NCBI RefSeq assembly: GCF_014651515.1
Contig: NZ_BMXA01000001.1
Span: 496,001 to 560,000 of the forward strand
Origin: Arenicella chitinivorans
GTDB taxonomy: Bacteria > Pseudomonadota > Gammaproteobacteria > Arenicellales > Arenicellaceae
DNA length: 64,000 bases
Reading direction: 5' to 3'
The position numbers and the translations under genes are program-made. Under the pieces are notes generated by a model that saw only the letters and a list, made by a program, of their open reading frames with translations, was not told where the DNA came from and did no database searches. Below, in pieces: positions 54,091 to 64,000 of this stretch. Numbering within the stretch: position 1 is the stretch's first letter; the number at the start of each line of letters is the position of its first letter.

Positions 54091-55470
54091 ATGTTTTTCA
54101 ATCGCAGGGCATTACCTCAAGAGATTACTCCTGAGCAAGGGAGTAAGCTGCTAATTTCAGGTGATTTTTCTTGGGTTTCTTCCGGAGACCTAATTGGAAC
54201 CAAGGATGACTGGGCCTCGATTGGGCAATTCTTGTGTGACGATTGTGTCGCGTATGATGAGCTATGGCAGGTCGTGTCGGGTTTATGTGGTGCCGTAGGG
54301 GATTTGCCTTCTTCGAAGGTAGCCCTTTTGGCAAATCAGTTGGCAAATTCGTTTATAAAAAGAGGTCGGCTGCGGGAAGCTTTAGAGCTCGCTGTTGGGC
54401 TGTCAAGCAAATTTCCCGAGGTTACAGCACTCCATTTGTGTCAATGCCGTGTGAAGCTCAGGCAGGGGCGTGTTGATGAGGTGAGGGGTGAGTTGGATAG
54501 ATACTCGCAGGCGACAGACCCGTGGGTAGCAAACGCCGTGCTGGAAATGGCATCGGCTACACGTCATTACGCGTTATTAGATCTTTTGGTCAATAATGTG
54601 CCTCTGGGTATCGAGGCTGCGGGTTTATCGATGGTGGGTCAAAAAGCGCTGAAAGGTAAAATGGTCCTTGCGAAGGCGTTGCTAGGTTTTCAGGGTTCCG
54701 GTGGTAAGAATATGCAGCGTCATTCCCCGCTTGAGATCGCGCGAGGCGCTGATTCAGGTGTTTTTTCTGTTGTCTGTATCAACCTCGATCGGGATGCGCA
54801 ACGATTTCTGCTTCTGAGAGCACTTTATAAGGAGATTGGAATTCAGCCTGAGCGCCACCCGGGAATATTTGGTGCAAGCGTTCCCCAAATAGCCGTGGAC
54901 TCAATATTTAAATCAAAGAGGCCCTTGAATGCGATTGGCTGCACAATGTCCCATATTTCTGTTTGGGATAAAGTGGCTAAGTTAGATGATGAACAGGTTG
55001 TCTTGGTTTTGGAGGATGATGCGCTTCCGTCTCATCAATATAATGTTTCAGAGCTTCTAGCTTCGCTGCCGAGCGATATGGATTATTGCTTTGTCAACGA
55101 TCGCGCGGCTGGGGGATGGACGTCCAATGACTTGAGCAAATATCAATTCGAGAAAGCGCAATATGCGAATCGGAAGTTGTCTGATGATTGTCGTGCTATT
55201 GGCGGCGACGGCTACTTGTTGTCACCAAAAGGCGCTAGGAAGCTATTAGGGTTGGTTGCTCGTGATGGGGTCGTGCATAGTGTGGATTGGCAAATGTACG
55301 CACTGGGTTTGAGTGATGCTCTTGGCGAATTGAGTGGTCGGGTGGGGGGTATTGTGGAGTCGATTCTTACAAAGCTTGATCACTCTTATGATTTTAACGT
55401 TTATGTTTGTTCAACTCCTTTGGTTATTCACTCGCCGCTTGGGTATACTCCACGTTCTCATTTTAACTAA
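54091..55470 (+). CDS. Glycosyltransferase family 25-like protein with helical N-terminal half
   Basis: 459 residues. The N-terminal half (1-210) is helical and TPR-like in outline (paired helices with GRLREALELAVGLSS). The C-terminal half matches the LPS beta-galactosyltransferase family GT25: VVCINLDRDAQRFLLLRALY, NAIGCTMSHISVWDKVAKLD and VLVLEDDALPSHQYN with its acidic metal site. It probably adds a galactose or related sugar to the glycan, in the cytoplasm. Start ATG 54091 at only 24 bases from the preceding terminator, so it needs its own promoter or read-through. Confidence 0.82.
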   Translation: MFFNRRALPQEITPEQGSKLLISGDFSWVSSGDLIGTKDDWASIGQFLCDDCVAYDELWQVVSGLCGAVGDLPSSKVALLANQLANSFIKRGRLREALELAVGLSSKFPEVTALHLCQCRVKLRQGRVDEVRGELDRYSQATDPWVANAVLEMASATRHYALLDLLVNNVPLGIEAAGLSMVGQKALKGKMVLAKALLGFQGSGGKNMQRHSPLEIARGADSGVFSVVCINLDRDAQRFLLLRALYKEIGIQPERHPGIFGASVPQIAVDSIFKSKRPLNAIGCTMSHISVWDKVAKLDDEQVVLVLEDDALPSHQYNVSELLASLPSDMDYCFVNDRAAGGWTSNDLSKYQFEKAQYANRKLSDDCRAIGGDGYLLSPKGARKLLGLVARDGVVHSVDWQMYALGLSDALGELSGRVGGIVESILTKLDHSYDFNVYVCSTPLVIHSPLGYTPRSHFN

Positions 55471-55496
55471 TTAATTAATTCTGTTTTAGCAAGCTT

Positions 55497-56696
55497 ATGA
55501 ATGTTATTGTTTTTGGGGGGGATGGGTTTTGTGGATGGCCCACCGCTCTTCACTTATCCAATCTTGGTTTCAATGTCACGATTGTTGACAACCTCTCTCG
55601 CCGAAATATTGATAATGAGCTGGGGTGTTCTTCGCTGACTCCAATTGCGTCTATGGATGCACGCTTAAAAGCCTGGTACGAAATAACTGGAAAAGAGATT
55701 CAGTTCGCGAATATAGATATGGCTGAAGACTACGCTGGTCTTAAGGCGGTATTGGAACAGGTTTCACCAGATGCGGTAATCCATTTTGCAGAACAGCGAG
55801 CCGCTCCATACTCTATGAAAAGCGCCGCGCATAAATGTTACACGGTGATGAACAATATCGGTGCCACGCACAATTTGCTTGCAGCGGTTGTGGATGCAGG
55901 GTTGGATCCGCATATTGTTCATCTAGGGACTATGGGGGTGTATGGGTACGGTAGTGCAGGCATGAAAATTCCAGAAGGCTACTTGAATATTAAGTGTGAA
56001 GGTGACGAAGGGCAAGTTATTGAAAATGAGATACTCTATCCAGTTAACCCAGGAAGTATCTATCATATGACAAAGACCCAGGATCAATTGTTGTTCGCAT
56101 TCTATAATAAGAATGACCACGTTAGAGTTACAGATTTGCATCAAGGGATCGTCTGGGGAACTCAAACTAAAGAAACTGAGCTTGATCAAAGACTAATAAA
56201 CAGGTTTGACTACGATGGCGACTACGGGACTGTATTAAATCGATTTTTAATGCAGTCAGCGGTCGGACACCCTTTGACGGTGCATGGGACTGGCGGGCAG
56301 ACGCGCGCGTTTATTCACATCCAAGATACCGTCAGATGTATCGAGATAGCCTTACGGAATCCGCCTAAAAAAGGTGTCAAGGTAGAGATATTTAATCAAA
56401 TGACGGAGACGCATAAAGTTCGCGACTTGGCCGAAATGATTTCTGATCTAACTGGTTGTGAGGTTGCGTATCTGACTAACCCACGAAATGAGGCGGACGA
56501 GAACGAGCTTCACGTTAAGAATGATAAGTTTTTGTCGCATGGCCTTGAACCGGTTACTTTAAAGGAGGGTTTGTTGTCTGAGGTCCGAGATATTGCGGAA
56601 AAGTATTCTGGGCGTTGTGACCAGGCTAAGATTCCTTGTGTTTCAACTTGGAATAAAGAACGCGCTGCTGAAATCAAAGAGCACGTTATCAAATGA
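55497..56696 (+). CDS. UDP-sulfoquinovose synthase (SQD1 family)
   Basis: 399 residues, extended SDR that makes UDP-sulfoquinovose from UDP-glucose and sulfite. The NAD motif is GGDGFCGWPTALHL (7-20). All SQD1-specific residues are seen: T145 in LGTMGVYGYG, the Y189-x3-K193 pair in YHMTKTQDQ, HFAEQRAAPYSM near residue 96, and VWGTQTKETELD, the UDP-binding part. The C-terminal FNQMTETHKVRDLAE and DENELHVKNDKFLSHGLEP also follow plant and cyanobacterial SQD1. It is separated from the next gene by an ATGA overlap. No sulfolipid synthase (SqdX/SqdC) is near, so a glycan rather than lipid product is likely. Confidence 0.92.
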   Translation: MNVIVFGGDGFCGWPTALHLSNLGFNVTIVDNLSRRNIDNELGCSSLTPIASMDARLKAWYEITGKEIQFANIDMAEDYAGLKAVLEQVSPDAVIHFAEQRAAPYSMKSAAHKCYTVMNNIGATHNLLAAVVDAGLDPHIVHLGTMGVYGYGSAGMKIPEGYLNIKCEGDEGQVIENEILYPVNPGSIYHMTKTQDQLLFAFYNKNDHVRVTDLHQGIVWGTQTKETELDQRLINRFDYDGDYGTVLNRFLMQSAVGHPLTVHGTGGQTRAFIHIQDTVRCIEIALRNPPKKGVKVEIFNQMTETHKVRDLAEMISDLTGCEVAYLTNPRNEADENELHVKNDKFLSHGLEPVTLKEGLLSEVRDIAEKYSGRCDQAKIPCVSTWNKERAAEIKEHVIK

Positions 56697-57475
56697 GTAG
56701 TGAGGACTCCCCGGTGATAGTGCACGCGCATTTGTTTAAAAACGCGGGTTCAACCATTGACTGGATACTAAAAAAAAATTTTAAATGGGCATTTCTAGAT
56801 GACCGAAACGATGACCGGATGCGTATGGAGCCGGGGTACATGGGCGAGGTTCTGCGAGAGAACAAGGGGCTGAAGGCAATTTCAAGTCACTCAATTCGTC
56901 TACCTTTGGCTGATGTGCCTGGTTATCGATTCCATCTATTGTTCTTTCTGCGGCATCCGGTGGCCCGTGTTAGAAGTGTGTATGATTTCGAAAGAAAACA
57001 AAATGCAAAGACCCCGGGTGCGGTTAAGGCAAAGGAGTTATCGTTTTCAGAGTATGTTCGATGGCGACTTCGCGATGATGTGCCGAAGACGATTCGCAAT
57101 TTCCATACAAGCTACTTGACGGCGTGTGTGCCGGGTAGGCTGGGTCTTTCTTCTAATGAATTATTGAAAAGTGCCATTAATTTAATAGAGTGCACACCAT
57201 TAGTAGGGCTAGTGGAGTACTTTGATGCAAGTATGGCGTATTTTAAGTGTGAGCTTGAGAATGATTTTCCTGGTATTGATCTTTCTTATGAAATACAGAA
57301 TAGTTCGCGCGGAGCTCCTGTCTGTGTTGCCGATTCTGTCAAGCGTGTGAGGGATGATTTGGGAGAGAGTCTCTATGCACAATTCTTAGAGAAAAATGAA
57401 GCTGACCTACTGCTCTATAACGCCGCAGAGGAAATTCTGAAGGCGCGTTGGAAGCTAGGAGTAGGGCAAGCATAA
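56693..57475 (+). CDS. Sulfotransferase family 2 protein
   Basis: 260 residues. The 5'-PAPS loop is HAHLFKNAGSTIDWILKK (K-N-A-G-S-T), and the 3'-phosphate block is LLFFLRHPVARVRSVYDFER near residue 83, both clear hallmarks of the Golgi-type carbohydrate sulfotransferases. It probably sulfates a hydroxyl on a cell-surface sugar, with PAPS made elsewhere. Its start overlaps the SQD1 gene stop (ATGA), so both are translated together, which links sulfonation and sulfation of one product. Confidence 0.88.
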   Translation: MSSEDSPVIVHAHLFKNAGSTIDWILKKNFKWAFLDDRNDDRMRMEPGYMGEVLRENKGLKAISSHSIRLPLADVPGYRFHLLFFLRHPVARVRSVYDFERKQNAKTPGAVKAKELSFSEYVRWRLRDDVPKTIRNFHTSYLTACVPGRLGLSSNELLKSAINLIECTPLVGLVEYFDASMAYFKCELENDFPGIDLSYEIQNSSRGAPVCVADSVKRVRDDLGESLYAQFLEKNEADLLLYNAAEEILKARWKLGVGQA

Positions 57476-57598: not shown

Positions 57599-60223
57599 AT
57601 GACCGACCAATTTGCTAAAGAAACCATCCCCGCTAATCTCGAGCAGGAGATGCGTCAATCCTACCTTGATTACGCGATGAGTGTAATCGTTGGGCGAGCG
57701 TTGCCAGACGTTCGAGACGGCCTAAAGCCGGTGCATCGACGCGCGTTGTTCGCCATGTCGCAGCTTAATAATGACTACAACAAGCCGTACAAGAAATCGG
57801 CGCGTATCGTGGGCGATGTGATCGGTAAATACCATCCGCACGGTGACACAGCTGTGTACGACACGATTGTTCGATTGGCGCAGGATTTCTCTATGCGCTA
57901 CCCGTTGGTGGATGGTCAGGGTAACTTTGGTTCGATTGATGGCGATTCGCCCGCCGCAATGCGGTATACCGAGATTCGACTGGCTAAGATCGCACACGAA
58001 ATTCTCGCCGATCTTGATAAAGAAACCGTCGATTTTTATCCGAACTACGACGAAAGCGAGATGCAGCCATCGGTGATGCCGACCAAAATTCCGACGTTGT
58101 TGGTTAATGGTTCTTCCGGTATCGCGGTTGGAATGGCGACCAATATTCCACCGCACAATCTTACGGAAGTTATCAACGGCTGTGTCGCAATGATCGACAA
58201 CGAGGACATCACCGTTGATGAATTGATGGAGCATATTCCCGGTCCGGATTTTCCAACTTCAGGTTTTATCAACGGTGCCAAAGGGATCCGAGACGCGTAT
58301 CGCACCGGACGTGGAAAAATCTACATGCGTGCTCGTACGCACATTGAGACTAATGAGAGCAATGGTCGGCAGGCGATTATCGTGACCGAGCTGCCTTATA
58401 TGGTGAACAAAGCACGTTTGCTGGAGAAGATCGCCGAACTGGTCAAGACTAAAAAAATCGACGGTATTACGGAGCTGCGCGACGAATCTGACAAGAGCGG
58501 TATGCGCATGTTTATTTCAGTGCGTCGTGGCGAAGTTGCTGAGGTCATTCTCAATAAGTTGTTTCAACAGACACAAATGCAAACGGTGTTCGGTATCAAT
58601 ACGGTTGCACTTCTGGACAATCAGCCGCGTCTGTTTAACCTGCGGGAATTGCTGGCAGAGTTTATTAAACATCGCCGAGAAGTCGTAACCCGTCGTACCA
58701 TCTACAATTTGCGTAAGGCGCGTGCCCGGGCCCACACTCTGGAAGGCCTGGCCATTGCCTTGAGCAACATCGACGAGATGATCGAGTTGATTAAACAATC
58801 AGCCAGCCCCGCTGTGGCGAAAGAGCAACTGCTGGGGCGCAGTTGGACGCCGGGTGTGGTGGCCGATATGATTGCGCGCGCCGGTGCGGTGTCCTCCAAG
58901 CCGATTGGATTAGATCCTGAGCTGGGTTTGCACGGGAATGAATACCGATTGTCTGAAAAGCAGGCGCAGGCCATTTTGGATCTACGTTTGCATCGTCTGA
59001 CCGGCCTCGAGCAAGACAAGATTCGTGAAGAGTATGCCGAAGTTCTCGAGAAAATCGCCGAATTTATAAATATCTTGGAAAACGTGGACCGATTGATGGA
59101 AGTGATTCGCGAAGAGCTTGTTGCTATTCGTGAAGAGTATGGCGATCAGCGGCGCACCGAGATTATTGATCAGAAGCTCGATCTTACGCTAGAGGACATG
59201 ATCGCCGAGGAAGATTTGGTGGTGACCTTGTCGCACGAAGGTTACGCCAAGTCACAGCCTCTGAGTGACTACCGCGCGCAGCGTCGTGGCGGTAAGGGCA
59301 AAAGTGCAACCAAAACCAAAGACGAAGATTTTGTCGAACGTATGTTTGTTGCCAATTCGCACGATACCATTCTGTGCTTTTCGGACAAAGGCAAGGTTTA
59401 TTGGTTGAAAGTCTATGAGTTGCCACAGGCCGGGCGCAATGCGCGGGGTAAGCCAATTGTGAATCTCTTGCCGCTCGAAAATAGTGAGCACATCACTGCG
59501 ATTTTGCCGGTGAAAGAGTTTACCGAAGGTCAATTCGTGTTCATGGCCACCAGCGACGGCACGGTCAAGAAGACATCATTGATGGACTTTTCGCGTCCTC
59601 GAGCTAACGGTATCATCGCGCTGGATCTGGTGGATGGTAACTCGTTGGTCGGTGTCGGGTTGACCAGTGGAGAACAAGAAATCATGTTGTTCTGTAGCTC
59701 GGGCAAAGCTATTCGGTTTGCAGAACAGGATGTTCGCCAAATGGGTCGCACTGCGCGCGGCGTACGTGGCATTAAAGTCGGTGATGGGCATCAAGTGAAT
59801 GCCATGATTATTTGTGACGCAGGTGATGCAGAGTCGGCGGTATTGACCCTAACTGAAAACGGTTTTGGCAAACGCACGATGCTGTCGGAATACAATACGC
59901 AAGGCCGCGGCGGCCAAGGCGTGATCTCCATTCAGACCAGTGATCGGAATGGCAATGCGGTTGGCGCAATTTTGGTGCAAGAAGGTAACGAAGCAATGTT
60001 GATTACCAATGGTGGTACGCTGGTTCGCACCCGGGTCTGCGAGGTGTCAGTGATTGGTCGCAATACGCAGGGCGTGAAAATTATTGGTGTTTCTGGTGGT
60101 GAGAAGCTCATCAGTATAGAGAAGGTCGCGGAGTCGGACGACGACGAATCAGGCGACGATGAACTCGCTGACGGCGATGCCGGTGGTGTACAATCGGACG
60201 AGGAGACGCACGATAACGAGTAA
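57599..60223 (+). CDS. gyrA: DNA gyrase subunit A
   Basis: 874 residues, the strand-cutting subunit of gyrase, which introduces negative supercoils. The catalytic tyrosine is Y123 in [10 protein letters not shown]. The quinolone-determining region is [12 protein letters not shown], with Thr at 84, the equivalent of E. coli Ser83; Thr is the wild-type residue in Pseudomonas and others, so it is not in itself a sign of resistance. The GyrA box is [12 protein letters not shown] near residue 560. The C-terminal tail is a run of Asp, Glu and Gly ([19 protein letters not shown]). Upstream of the protease island. Confidence 0.97.
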
Positions 60224-60248: not shown

Positions 60249-61490
60249 TTGGTTCAGATTGTACGGCAAACAAGCTGGGTTCGATTGTTGCTGAGCCTAG
60301 TGCTCAGCGTAGGGTGTTTTGCGTCGGTTTCGGCAGGCTTGCCGCCAGATATCTCCGTATCGATCTCACCTACGAAGACGCAGATAGCGCGAACGGACTC
60401 TGTATTGATCTCAGTCACTTACCAAAATCAATCCTCTGAGGTGGTGCGTTTGCTTCAATATGGCACGGCGCTCGAAGGTTCGGTGGCGGAAGATTTTCTC
60501 ATCGTTGTGCGTAATGGCGAGCCTCAGCCGTATCAAGGAATTCTTGCCATGCGGTTTCCGCCGTCAATCAATGATTACACTGTTTTGGTGCCCGGGCAGT
60601 CAGTGACTGCCGAAGTCGATATTGAGGCAAGCTACGGTGTACGACAGGTTGGAGGGTATCAAGTTTACCATCGGGATGGCCAAGGTGGTGCTATAGAAAG
60701 TGGTGGTGCGCAGTTTTGGTTAACCGAATCGCGAGCACAACCCGCATTACCTCGGCAGGCCTCACCTCAGCAGGTCGCACCTAAGCAGGCTTCGGTTGCA
60801 CGCTTTTGCAGTGTTGCGCAGGCGGCCGCGGCGGACGGAGCGTTGAGTGTCGCGGAGACTTACGCACGCCACGCCCGCGATGACCTCAGAAACACATTGA
60901 TAAGTGCGCGGTCGGACGCGCGTCGCTACCGTTATTGGTTTGGGCAATACAGTCAGCCACGCTGGAATCGCGTGCAAGACGGAATGACTCGAATCTACAG
61001 CGCAGCTAGCAGCCGACGATTTACGTTTGATTGTGCTTGCGAAGCTGGAACTAACCGCACTATCGCCTATGTGTATGGTGCGCGTACGTCTGAAATTTTC
61101 TTATGCGACGGATTCTTTGGCATGCCGAGAGCGGGTGGGGATTCTCAGGCATCCGTTCTGGTCCATGAAATCAGCCACTTCAATGATACGGCAAACACTG
61201 ACGATGGTCCCCATGGTGTTAATGGTGCGCTTTACGGCCAAGGCGCGGCTGTGGGGTTAGCAATAACCAACCCTGATCGTGCCGTCGGGGCTGCCTCTAA
61301 TTACCAGTATTTTGCTGCCAACCCGACAGGCCTGCCAATGCCAACAGAGGGTGGTGATGGTGATAATGGAGGTGGTGATGAGGGCGATGAGCCTGGTTCT
61401 CTGCTTGATCCATTGATTCCGCCGGAGCCGGAATCAATACCACGCATTCTGGTGCCGATTGTGGACTTGCTGCTTGGCAACGAACGTTGA
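60249..61490 (+). CDS. Secreted M35-type (aspzincin) metallopeptidase
   Basis: About 413 residues from TTG 60249; an upstream TTG at 60225 is possible. Signal peptide (SWVRLLLSLVLSVGCFASVSA), then an N-terminal domain of about 110 residues, then the M35 catalytic domain. The zinc motif is H306-E307-I-S-H310 followed by a TDDGPHGVNGALYG region with the third-ligand Asp (D318 or D319). YFAANP follows. A Gly/Asp linker and a hydrophobic C-terminus (IPRILVPIVDLLLG) end the protein. Such enzymes cut before lysine or are broad endopeptidases. It begins about 25 bases after the gyrA stop with no terminator between. No SD is strong, and the start is uncertain. Confidence 0.85.
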   Translation: MVQIVRQTSWVRLLLSLVLSVGCFASVSAGLPPDISVSISPTKTQIARTDSVLISVTYQNQSSEVVRLLQYGTALEGSVAEDFLIVVRNGEPQPYQGILAMRFPPSINDYTVLVPGQSVTAEVDIEASYGVRQVGGYQVYHRDGQGGAIESGGAQFWLTESRAQPALPRQASPQQVAPKQASVARFCSVAQAAAADGALSVAETYARHARDDLRNTLISARSDARRYRYWFGQYSQPRWNRVQDGMTRIYSAASSRRFTFDCACEAGTNRTIAYVYGARTSEIFLCDGFFGMPRAGGDSQASVLVHEISHFNDTANTDDGPHGVNGALYGQGAAVGLAITNPDRAVGAASNYQYFAANPTGLPMPTEGGDGDNGGGDEGDEPGSLLDPLIPPEPESIPRILVPIVDLLLGNER

Positions 61491-61512
61491 TATTTATTCC
61501 GTGGGCAAATAA

Positions 61513-62010
61513 ATGACCTCAAAATTTTACTTCGCCATGATACTATCGTGTACGACTTTATTGTTGGCAGCCTGCAATGCACAATCTATGCAATTGACCT
61601 TGAGTCTCAACCTAGCTGAACTTGAGGCAGGGCAGGTGGTGCTGGAGGCAGAGCTGAAAAATAACGGTCAAGAGTCTGTCGAACTGTTGCCTTGGAATAC
61701 GCCAATGGAAGCGACTTTATTAGGCGATCTCTACCGAATTACACATGATGCTGCGGTCGATGCGCAAGCTTTGCCCTACCTTGGGCGAATGGTGAAGCGC
61801 GCGGCACCGGAGGTGGACGACTATGTCGTGCTGAAGGCCGGCGAAGTTTTACGTAATACTCAGCGTCTAAGCGAAGGGTACTCATTCTGTGCCAATCGCG
61901 CTTACCGACTAGAGTATATCGGCGTATTTGTGTCGCGTGACAACAACGTCGTACCGACTCGTAATAATATATTGAATTTTACAACTGGGCCCAGTTTTCC
62001 CCAGTGCTAA
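61513..62010 (+). CDS. Lipoprotein resembling the N-terminal domain of the flanking M35 peptidases
   Basis: 165 residues. Lipoprotein signal with lipobox LLAAC (cysteine near residue 21). The mature part aligns with the N-terminal domain of both neighbours: LPYLGRMVKRAAPEVDDYVVLKAGEVL matches LPYMGRHYKRAPATSADYISLAPGESR in the downstream peptidase and the equivalent in the upstream one. No catalytic domain follows. It may anchor, inhibit or fold the two peptidases in the outer membrane. Three genes close together (22 bases before; overlap of 7 bases with an upstream frame of the next) suggest one unit. Confidence 0.85.
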   Translation: MTSKFYFAMILSCTTLLLAACNAQSMQLTLSLNLAELEAGQVVLEAELKNNGQESVELLPWNTPMEATLLGDLYRITHDAAVDAQALPYLGRMVKRAAPEVDDYVVLKAGEVLRNTQRLSEGYSFCANRAYRLEYIGVFVSRDNNVVPTRNNILNFTTGPSFPQC

Positions 62011-62072
62011 TCTACCCAGTACGGGGCATGGTAGATGAACTGTGTCGCGTACCAATCAGGAGAATTTCGACT

Positions 62073-63503
62073 ATGTCTAAGTTGATGTTGGTGTTTAAAA
62101 ACAAGGCTGTATTTCGAATCCTGGCGCTAGGACTCTTACTGGTTTGCGCTAATGTTTACGCGGATTTGCCAAGTGGCATCGCGATGAGCGTGGATGTGGT
62201 GCAAAGTAAAGTCAGTCCCAGTGAGCAAGCCTTGGTAAAAGTCACGTACACCAATGTCGGGTCGACACCCAAGCAACTCCTGCGCTGGGAGACCGCGTTC
62301 GAGGGGCGGGTCGATGAAGATTTTTTGACCGTCACTCATGAAGGTCGCGTGTTGCCCTATATGGGGCGTCACTATAAGCGTGCTCCGGCGACTTCAGCCG
62401 ATTACATCAGTTTAGCGCCGGGCGAAAGTCGCAGTCAGGTCGTCGATATTAATACAGGCTACCACCTCGATTACAAAGGGGAGTACCTTATTAGCCCTAA
62501 GGGCGCTGCCGTGGCGCAAAAGTCACCGCCTGTCAAATTGATCTTGAGCAAGGATCGCCCAGTAAGTCTGAAACAAACGCCGATTATCAACAGTTGTGAT
62601 GGTGATCGTCCAGATCAAATTGATTCCGCCTTGGGTGCCGCTGAGAGTTTGGCAAAACGTGCGCGCGATGACATGCGGGCAACGCCGGTCGCGTTTCGTC
62701 GTTCGGTGCAACGCTACAAAGAATGGTTTGGGGCGTATACAGCGACCCGATGGAACGCTGTGCAACGAAATTTTGATCGTATTTTCTCAACGCTCAGCGG
62801 CCGTACAATCACGTTCGAGTGTGACGACAGCGTGCCATATTTTGCTTACGTTTACCCTGGTCAACCTTACGATGTCTATCTGGGGCAAGCATTCTGGAGT
62901 GCGCCGATGACTGGCACTGATTCCAAGGCGGGCACGATTATCCATGAGGTTAGTCACTTTAACGTGGTGGCGGCAACCGACGACATAGAATATGGGCAGT
63001 CGGCAGCTCGAAGCTTGGCGCGAACACGCCCTGCTGATGCGGTACGAAATGCAGATAGTCATGAGTATTTTGCGGAAAATACCCCGTCTTTGCCTATGTT
63101 CACCGCAACTGTCGATCTGGTTTCATCAATTACAGTGACAGAAGATCTGAAAACAGTAGTCGGTGGCAATGTGAGTCTCTCCGCGTCGGTGAGTAATGTG
63201 GGGAGCGCGGATGCACCGTCGACGACGGTTACCGTACGCGTGTCTGCTGATTCGGTGATATCACTTGCAGATCCCGTGGCTGGCAGTGCGCCTGTCATGG
63301 CGCTTGCCGGTGGTGAGGAGCTGGCTGTTGATTTGTCTTTTAAAGCGCCGCGTGAAGAGGGGCAATACTGGATTGGTGTGTGTGTCACTGAGGTCAACGG
63401 GGAGTCAGGTACCGACAATAACTGTTCTGGTGGTGTGCCACTTACCGTGCGCAAAATGTCATTACTGTCCGTTTTGATGCTGTTACTAAGCGACGATGAC
63501 TAG
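62073..63503 (+). CDS. Secreted M35-type metallopeptidase with CARDB domain
   Basis: 476 residues from ATG 62073, with AGGAG upstream at 10 bases. Signal peptide (FRILALGLLLVCANVYA). The N-terminal domain (about 30-135) has LPYMGRHYKRAPA. The M35 domain carries H291-E292-V-S-H295 and the third ligand in ATDDIEYG (D304), the standard HExxH plus GTxDxxYG pattern. After it, residues about 350-450 resemble a CARDB adhesion domain (SVSNVGSADAPSTTVTVRV). A short hydrophobic tail (MSLLSVLMLLLSDDD) ends it. Substrate unknown; the CARDB domain may bind a surface or matrix. Confidence 0.87.
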   Translation: MSKLMLVFKNKAVFRILALGLLLVCANVYADLPSGIAMSVDVVQSKVSPSEQALVKVTYTNVGSTPKQLLRWETAFEGRVDEDFLTVTHEGRVLPYMGRHYKRAPATSADYISLAPGESRSQVVDINTGYHLDYKGEYLISPKGAAVAQKSPPVKLILSKDRPVSLKQTPIINSCDGDRPDQIDSALGAAESLAKRARDDMRATPVAFRRSVQRYKEWFGAYTATRWNAVQRNFDRIFSTLSGRTITFECDDSVPYFAYVYPGQPYDVYLGQAFWSAPMTGTDSKAGTIIHEVSHFNVVAATDDIEYGQSAARSLARTRPADAVRNADSHEYFAENTPSLPMFTATVDLVSSITVTEDLKTVVGGNVSLSASVSNVGSADAPSTTVTVRVSADSVISLADPVAGSAPVMALAGGEELAVDLSFKAPREEGQYWIGVCVTEVNGESGTDNNCSGGVPLTVRKMSLLSVLMLLLSDDD

Positions 63504-63752: not shown

Positions 63753-64000
63753 ATGAGTCGTGTTTATAACTTCAGTGCAGGTCCAGCTGTACTGCCATTG
63801 GCTGTGCTTGAAGAAGTGCAAGCTGAGCTACTGGAATGGGGGCATACCGGTGCGTCGGTGATGGAAGTATCACATCGAGGTGGGCCCTTTATGCAGACTG
63901 CCGCACAAGCAGAACAGGATTTGCGCGATTTGATGGGCATCCCGGATAACTACAAAGTCCTGTTTCTGCAAGGTGGTGCCACGATGCAGTTCTCTGCAAT
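63753..64000 (+). CDS. serC: Phosphoserine aminotransferase (5' end only)
   Basis: Only the first 82 residues are in the window: [26 protein letters not shown], then [13 protein letters not shown] and [13 protein letters not shown]. These fit class V PLP transaminase SerC, which makes phosphoserine in serine synthesis and acts in pyridoxine synthesis. GGAG precedes ATG 63753. gyrA-serC is a usual neighbouring pair in gammaproteobacteria; here the peptidase trio separates them. Confidence 0.93.

Follow-up and report, generated by a model that had tools for sequence, protein, structure and literature searches.

In a 64,000-nucleotide stretch of Arenicella chitinivorans DNA (contig NZ_BMXA01000001.1, positions 496,001 to 560,000; hereafter the window), the genes of two secreted M35 metallopeptidases, P1 and P3, flank the gene of a lipoprotein, P2, and the three lie together between gyrA and serC. 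We found that P2 corresponds in sequence and predicted fold to the propeptide domain of M35 enzymes, encoded as a protein of its own. The reading that we favour, with a probability of roughly two in three, is that P2 would be a cognate, envelope-anchored inhibitor of the propeptide type, that is, an immunity or safety factor against the neighbouring lysine-specific M35 peptidase, chiefly P3. A preliminary description of this DNA had proposed two secreted M35-type peptidases flanking a lipoprotein between gyrA and serC, and the genes were indeed found in that place and orientation, with their zinc motifs present:

57599..60223, + strand: gyrA, left flank, from its open reading frame (ORF) and homology across the genus.
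60249..61490, + strand: P1, secreted M35 aspzincin peptidase (PF14521) with signal peptide, N-terminal domain (N-domain), catalytic domain and hydrophobic C-terminal tail PIVDLLLGNER.
61513..62010, + strand: P2, lipoprotein consisting of a free M35 N-domain (the propeptide domain) and lacking a catalytic part, from BLASTP, AlphaFold2 and Foldseek.
62073..63503, + strand: P3, secreted M35 peptidase with N-domain, catalytic domain, CARDB domain and C-terminal tail (PF14521, CARDB).
63753..64000, + strand: serC, right flank, extending beyond the window end (ORF; full gene in locus L006).

The preliminary description had also held that the lipoprotein carries the N-terminal domain of the peptidases without a catalytic part, and BLASTP bore this out, with an E-value of 7e-12 for the N-domain of P3 (31% over 96 amino acids, aa) and of 3e-7 for that of P1. 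Since a search of the whole genome with P3 as the query also recovered P2 (E 9e-7), the similarity between P2 and the peptidases clearly exceeds chance level. A profile of 29 free relatives matched residues 8-149 of the zymogen of AsaP1, an Aeromonas enzyme (PDB 2x3a), which are its propeptide part, with an E-value of 3e-26; a chance match was discarded on the BLASTP, whole-genome and profile values. A Pfam scan of P2 with E-values up to 1 returned no family, neither PF14521 nor BsuPI/IPI PF12690, and no Pfam or NCBIfam model scored above its cut-off on the sampled free copies of the domain. The AlphaFold2 model of P2, computed with ten genus homologues, reached a mean predicted local distance difference test score (pLDDT) of 87.5 and a predicted template modelling score (pTM) of 0.77, and was mostly beta outside the signal peptide. 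When it was compared to the PDB by Foldseek, the AsaP1 zymogen supplied the top four chains (E 7e-8 to 5e-7, probability 1.00, template modelling score (TM) about 0.6 on the query length), and the fifth was the Bacillus subtilis intracellular proteinase inhibitor 3isy (E 6e-4). An unrelated fold would have spoken against the domain assignment made in the preliminary description, and the predicted structure is instead that of an M35 zymogen propeptide. Judged by sequence and by its modelled fold against a solved M35 propeptide, P2 can be identified as a stand-alone M35 propeptide domain. It is like the AsaP1 propeptide (PDB 2x3a/b/c) in sequence (E 3e-26), in fold (E 7e-8) and in the loop Y-x-G-x-x-x-KRAAP, and unlike it in being a lipidated protein encoded by a gene of its own, with two extra cysteines, whereas the AsaP1 propeptide is a covalent part of the enzyme.

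All 10 Arenicella lipoproteins keep the lipobox cysteine, the loop Lys-Arg and two further cysteines, which in P2 are located as follows:

61564..61575, + strand: lipobox LAAC, residues 18-21, with Cys21 (61573-61575) predicted to be acylated and Asn at +2 (from the translation).
61795..61800, + strand: conserved loop Lys95-Arg96 (Y-G-x-x-x-K-R-x-x-P), the proposed active-site contact.
61888..62007, + strand: stretch whose first and last codons encode Cys126 and Cys165, a probable disulfide.

The signature Y-x-G-x-x-x-K-R is common to free and covalent domains, and its KR was present in 92 of the 101 free rows of the alignment, a count that includes repeats of a locus. This type of M35 enzyme cleaves on the N-terminal side of Lys, and in the Grifola enzyme glutamate E157 governs the specificity for Lys at P1' (PMC11985622). 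The corresponding positions of P1 and P3, together with their own loop residues and zinc motifs, are these:

60549..60551, + strand: P1 N-domain loop residue Met, where nearly all other M35 N-domains have Lys (alignment).
61164..61178, + strand: P1 zinc motif HEISH (translation).
61296..61307, + strand: P1 S1' specificity positions Ser and Gln, which are Asp and Glu in Lys-specific aspzincins (alignment, AASNYQYF).
62376..62378, + strand: P3 own N-domain loop Lys, YKRAP (alignment).
62943..62957, + strand: P3 zinc motif HEVSH (translation).
63054..63065, + strand: P3 S1' specificity residues Asp and Glu, equivalent to D154/E157 of the Grifola Lys-N enzyme (alignment, NADSHEYF).

The residue pair of a peptidyl-Lys (Lys-N) enzyme, Asp154 and Glu157 in Grifola numbering, is therefore found in the alignment in P3 and is missing from P1. 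Among 132 unique M35s, the specificity Glu was present in 126, every one of which also carried Lys in its own loop (126/126); in 4 of the 6 without that Glu the loop was changed, to Met in P1 and its G006 orthologue, to Arg in G073 and to Ser in G316. The association between loop Lys and Glu gave a Fisher value of 1.2e-6, and of 1.1e-4 on 80% representatives. The free protein adjoining the G316 enzyme has a loop Gln, and the other free copies with a changed loop are found at toxin loci, as orphans, at contig ends or in doubtful genes. The covariation is suggestive and fits a loop Lys that would lie in the S1' pocket. Because P2 and P3 both have the loop Lys, and P1 has Met together with an altered pocket, P3 is the expected partner of P2; P1, with Ser/Gln for Asp/Glu and Met for Lys, is probably not its main target. 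The earlier proposal that P2 acts on the secreted peptidases is accordingly narrowed to the downstream one as the likely partner, in place of both.

Both peptidases were recognised by Pfam as Aspzincin_M35 (PF14521; cut-off 30 bits), P1 with an E-value of 3.2e-28 (99.4 bits) and P3 with 1.2e-39 (136.5 bits), and P3 has in addition a CARDB domain (E 7e-9). They are 36% identical to each other, and P3 matches PDB entries 2x3a (E 4e-61) and 1g12 (E 1e-32). P3 has the zinc Asp followed at three residues by a Tyr, as expected for M35 (TDDIEYG); in P1 the TDD is present but the Tyr is shifted by an insertion (TDDGPHGVNGALYGQ). The best Foldseek matches of the predicted P3 model were to AsaP1, and its catalytic part matched the Grifola Lys-N enzyme 1g12 with a TM of 0.93 on the target. 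As the domain arrangement of this model is uncertain (pTM 0.59, root-mean-square deviation of about 17 to AsaP1 over both domains), it was left unused for loop distances.

Within Arenicella, the slot between gyrA and serC holds an M35-lipoprotein-M35 trio in two species, a lipoprotein-M35 pair in seven and an M35 without lipoprotein in three; in one further species the lipoprotein and the M35 are on separate contigs. The free gene is directly upstream of an M35 gene in this slot in 9 species. In several relatives (G015, G018, G019, G020 and G001) serC comes directly after gyrA, with no M35 there; the trio therefore occupies an insertion slot, as had been suggested beforehand. Some relatives have other secreted metallopeptidases before serC (L070, L262, L263).

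To survey other bacteria, one genome per species was scanned, yielding 80 M35 loci, and an N-domain ORF without a catalytic domain, as judged with profiles of the two domains, was scored as a free copy. Forty free N-domain ORFs were found across these loci, at about half of them, in Shewanella, Rheinheimera, Alteromonas, Aeromonas, Massilia and relatives, Myxococcus, Pyxidicoccus, Archangium, an Aminicenantes metagenome-assembled genome, Thiothrix, Thiosymbion and Methylomonas. Their position relative to the M35 gene varies (upstream, downstream on the same strand, or convergent), and in three M35 proteins (L190, L194, L195) a second N-domain is fused C-terminally with the K-R loop kept. This linkage, which outlasts changes of gene order and extends to fusion, points to a functional partnership and not to an inherited neighbourhood. 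Many free copies outside Arenicella have an ordinary signal peptide in place of the lipobox, which makes lipidation a variant. What looks like a free copy at L191/G073 is probably a second M35 broken up by a run of N, and it is not to be scored as free; an apparent split gene (L240/G708), which may be a frameshift, was left out.

In 398 genomes of the phylum, M35 was found in 21, the N-domain in 13 and both in 11; the two with an N-domain and no M35 had a 267-aa protein (L242) and a weak match (L243). In two family surveys, of 197 and 246 genomes, N-domain matches occurred in 27 and 58 genomes, and most short N-domain ORFs were within 6 kb of an M35-sized ORF, a few being 8 kb off or on other contigs. 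By the preliminary description, wide occurrence of such lipoproteins with no M35 gene nearby would have spoken against its reading: the large majority of free copies are M35-adjacent and orphans do exist as a minority, so the idea of wide orphan occurrence was set aside on the two family surveys. One orphan (L336) is degenerate and has lost its K-R loop, and another (L334) lies next to an RHS metallopeptidase toxin. A tree of the N-domains showed 9 changes between free and M35 labels, compared to about 40 with shuffled labels, though with 107 columns and many open forks its support is limited. Free copies fall into a few deep groups, separate from the N-domains of M35 enzymes, and with so few label changes they are therefore old; an origin by local duplication of a neighbour's N-domain was rejected on the same grounds. 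As far as sequences can tell, the pairing of P2-like proteins with M35 is old and widespread.

Two loci in other bacteria present the N-domain in the layout of a toxin cassette. At L241 (4365-7977), the gene after VgrG encodes an M35 catalytic domain lacking both signal peptide and propeptide (PF14521, E 7e-9), and the next one a secreted N-domain protein (profile E 3e-11). At L334 (6161-7525), an RHS protein with a C-terminal Tox-MPTase3 domain (PF15639, E 2e-9, HEATH motif) precedes a secreted N-domain protein (profile E 2e-7). In both, the N-domain genes are, to judge by gene order, at the classic places of immunity genes, and the suggestion of a toxin-immunity-like system made in the preliminary description gains support from them. 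The distant relative L241 has the marks of a type VI secretion system (T6SS) effector (linkage to VgrG, PAAR or Hcp, here VgrG, and no signal peptide of its own); the Arenicella trio does not, as P1 and P3 have signal peptides and the slot is that between gyrA and serC. A DNA search of Escherichia coli genomes for the T6SS-linked M35/N-domain pair was empty, and no second copy of it was found among 149 genomes of its family. The L241 cassette adjoins a trehalose operon.

From these results we propose that P2, lipidated and held at the cell envelope, would bind the catalytic domain in the way of the covalent propeptide of a zymogen, either in the periplasm or on the envelope, its loop Lys plugging the S1' pocket like a substrate. 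A peptidase that lost its own propeptide too early would then be neutralised by P2 ahead of export; binding, inhibition and protection of the envelope during export are what we infer for P2. Several observations weigh against this proposal. Two M35s without the specificity Glu retain the loop Lys (L132, L081), and the Lys was lost only about three times independently, so that a tree-aware pairs test cannot reach significance and the covariation is suggestive and no proof. The C-terminal fusions are evidence of linkage and do not demonstrate inhibition. At other T6SS-like M35 loci (L250-L253) the proteins encoded downstream are of kinds other than the N-domain, which would thus be one of several immunity solutions. 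Among the free copies of the two families surveyed, 8 of 24 and roughly 8 of 45 had no M35 within 6 kb, some of them lying at contig ends. Finally, four species of one genus (L330-L333, at about 7.2-7.9 kb in each) carry signal-less orphans with an intact K-R loop and no nearby M35, and no M35 N-domain match was obtained in their genomes.

Propeptides often serve both as folding aids and as inhibitors, and the Lif lipase-specific foldases are anchored to the membrane, as P2 would be. It could thus be argued, given that the fold of P2 equals that of the zymogen propeptide, that P2 is an intermolecular foldase that works at the membrane and templates the M35 catalytic domain in trans, inhibition not being its main role. 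We consider this unlikely: P1, P3 and nearly all partner enzymes retain their own N-domain, so a second foldase would be unneeded; a number of M35 genes inside and outside the genus have no free partner; and where the enzyme has no propeptide of its own, at L241, the layout is that of a T6SS toxin and immunity gene. The lipobox cysteine of all 10 genus copies and the C-terminal fusions in three M35s would also suit an adaptor that keeps the peptidase tied to the outer membrane, or displays it for a secretion machine, and leaves the active site unblocked. The plain signal peptides of many relatives outside the genus, and the finding that the conserved patch is the K-R loop, which varies with the specificity pocket of the enzyme, make such a role very improbable. 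There is a similarly slim chance that the loop Lys is a cleavage site. P2 would then serve as a sacrificial substrate, or as a regulator that the peptidase inactivates, and the covariation would be a matter of cleavage specificity. Enzymes cutting before Lys would give the same Lys-Glu covariation; the invariant Arg beside the Lys and the confidently predicted loop (block mean pLDDT 90-96) fit a rigid docking element better, and the orphans retaining K-R are explained by neither the plug nor the cleavage model.

Peptidase propeptide domains are known to act separately as inhibitors in other families, including I29 (CTLA-2, crammer), I9 (subtilisin propeptide-like) and free PepSY proteins. P2 resembles these in the reuse of the propeptide domain and differs in clan and fold; to our knowledge, none of them targets an M35 enzyme. 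The serralysin inhibitors AprI/Inh (PF02974) are small periplasmic inhibitors encoded beside a secreted metallopeptidase, a gene placement like that of P2, but their fold family is another and they are not homologous to the propeptide of the enzyme. The B. subtilis inhibitor IPI/BsuPI (PF12690, 3isy) has an immunoglobulin-like fold and acts as an inhibitor of subtilisins; it has been debated whether members of the family are inhibitors or competing substrates (PMC3901451). It shares with P2 an immunoglobulin-like protease-inhibitor fold with no detectable sequence relation, and it was reported ineffective on metallopeptidases (PMC3901451). Further parallels come from toxin systems. VgrG2b of Pseudomonas aeruginosa is a T6SS metallopeptidase toxin neutralised through complex formation by the periplasmic PA0261, whose relatives in Enterobacteriaceae are lipoproteins with conserved cysteines (PMC6899460), and an M35 toxin with its immunity protein has been shown at another vgrG locus (PMC10673891). 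VgrG2b-PA0261 and Tpe1-Tpi1 (PMC6899460, PMC10673891) share with the arrangement proposed for the Arenicella trio the combination of a metallopeptidase with a binding immunity protein localised at the envelope, which in some lineages is, as P2, a lipoprotein with a likely disulfide; unlike their toxins, the Arenicella peptidases each come with a signal peptide and a propeptide and lie outside any VgrG/PAAR context. In a term search, the PA0261 paper (PMC6899460) showed no mention of a propeptide, and no description of free M35 propeptides as inhibitors was found in the literature searched, which included few subscription papers.

The genes of the trio are closely spaced (gyrA-P1 25 bp, P1-P2 22 bp, P2-P3 62 bp, P3-serC 249 bp), and on the + strand no terminator-like site was found between the three, the single candidate (63306-63325) lying within P3; P1, P2 and P3 look like a putative single transcription unit. 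The start of P3 is most likely the ATG at 62073, an alternative GTG at 62004 overlapping the stop of P2, and that of P1 is the TTG at 60249 or a site further upstream. Directly upstream of gyrA (window 54091-57475) are genes for a glycosyltransferase of family 25, an NAD-dependent epimerase and a sulfotransferase-like protein.

A third M35 is encoded on the same contig away from the trio (C1:777071-778060). This protein (562 aa; L005 5039-6727, C1:777071 region) differs in its C-terminal region and comes after two conserved secreted proteins (L005 2432-4126 and 4228-4800), an order also seen in L079, in two species; no free N-domain was found at this locus (L005, L079). In a subgroup of Arenicella M35s (L067, L070, L071, L072, L074, L076) Asn replaces the S1' Asp, and several of these seemingly lack the usual Tyr after the zinc Asp, hinting at a changed activity. 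Many unrelated exported Arenicella proteins, including M35s, other metallopeptidases, adhesin-like repeat proteins and others, end in a short, hydrophobic PI-x-x-LLL-D-D/E tail at the extreme C-terminus, which is possibly an undescribed C-terminal sorting or anchoring signal:

Window 61457-61487 and 63459-63500: C-terminal tails.
L070 2726-3787, L262 143-1180 and L263 2887-3879: further instances.
L347, L348, L352, L353, L355, L360 and L366: further loci with the tail.

Beyond Arenicella, we tentatively suggest, at odds somewhat short of even, that the M35 propeptide fold is a general, as yet unnamed family of bacterial zinc-peptidase antidotes in several guises (covalent propeptide, stand-alone lipoprotein or periplasmic inhibitor beside a secreted M35, C-terminal fusion, and T6SS or RHS immunity protein), whose specificity would be set by one loop residue matching the S1' pocket. 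If the proposal made here for P2 is true, many secreted M35s, relatives of AsaP1 included, would have a dedicated antidote gene that falls outside Pfam and NCBIfam models, and the free domains would show how a covalent propeptide turns into an immunity protein. Immunity genes of metallopeptidase toxins would then be recognisable by fold, and the loop would offer a one-residue test of inhibitor specificity.

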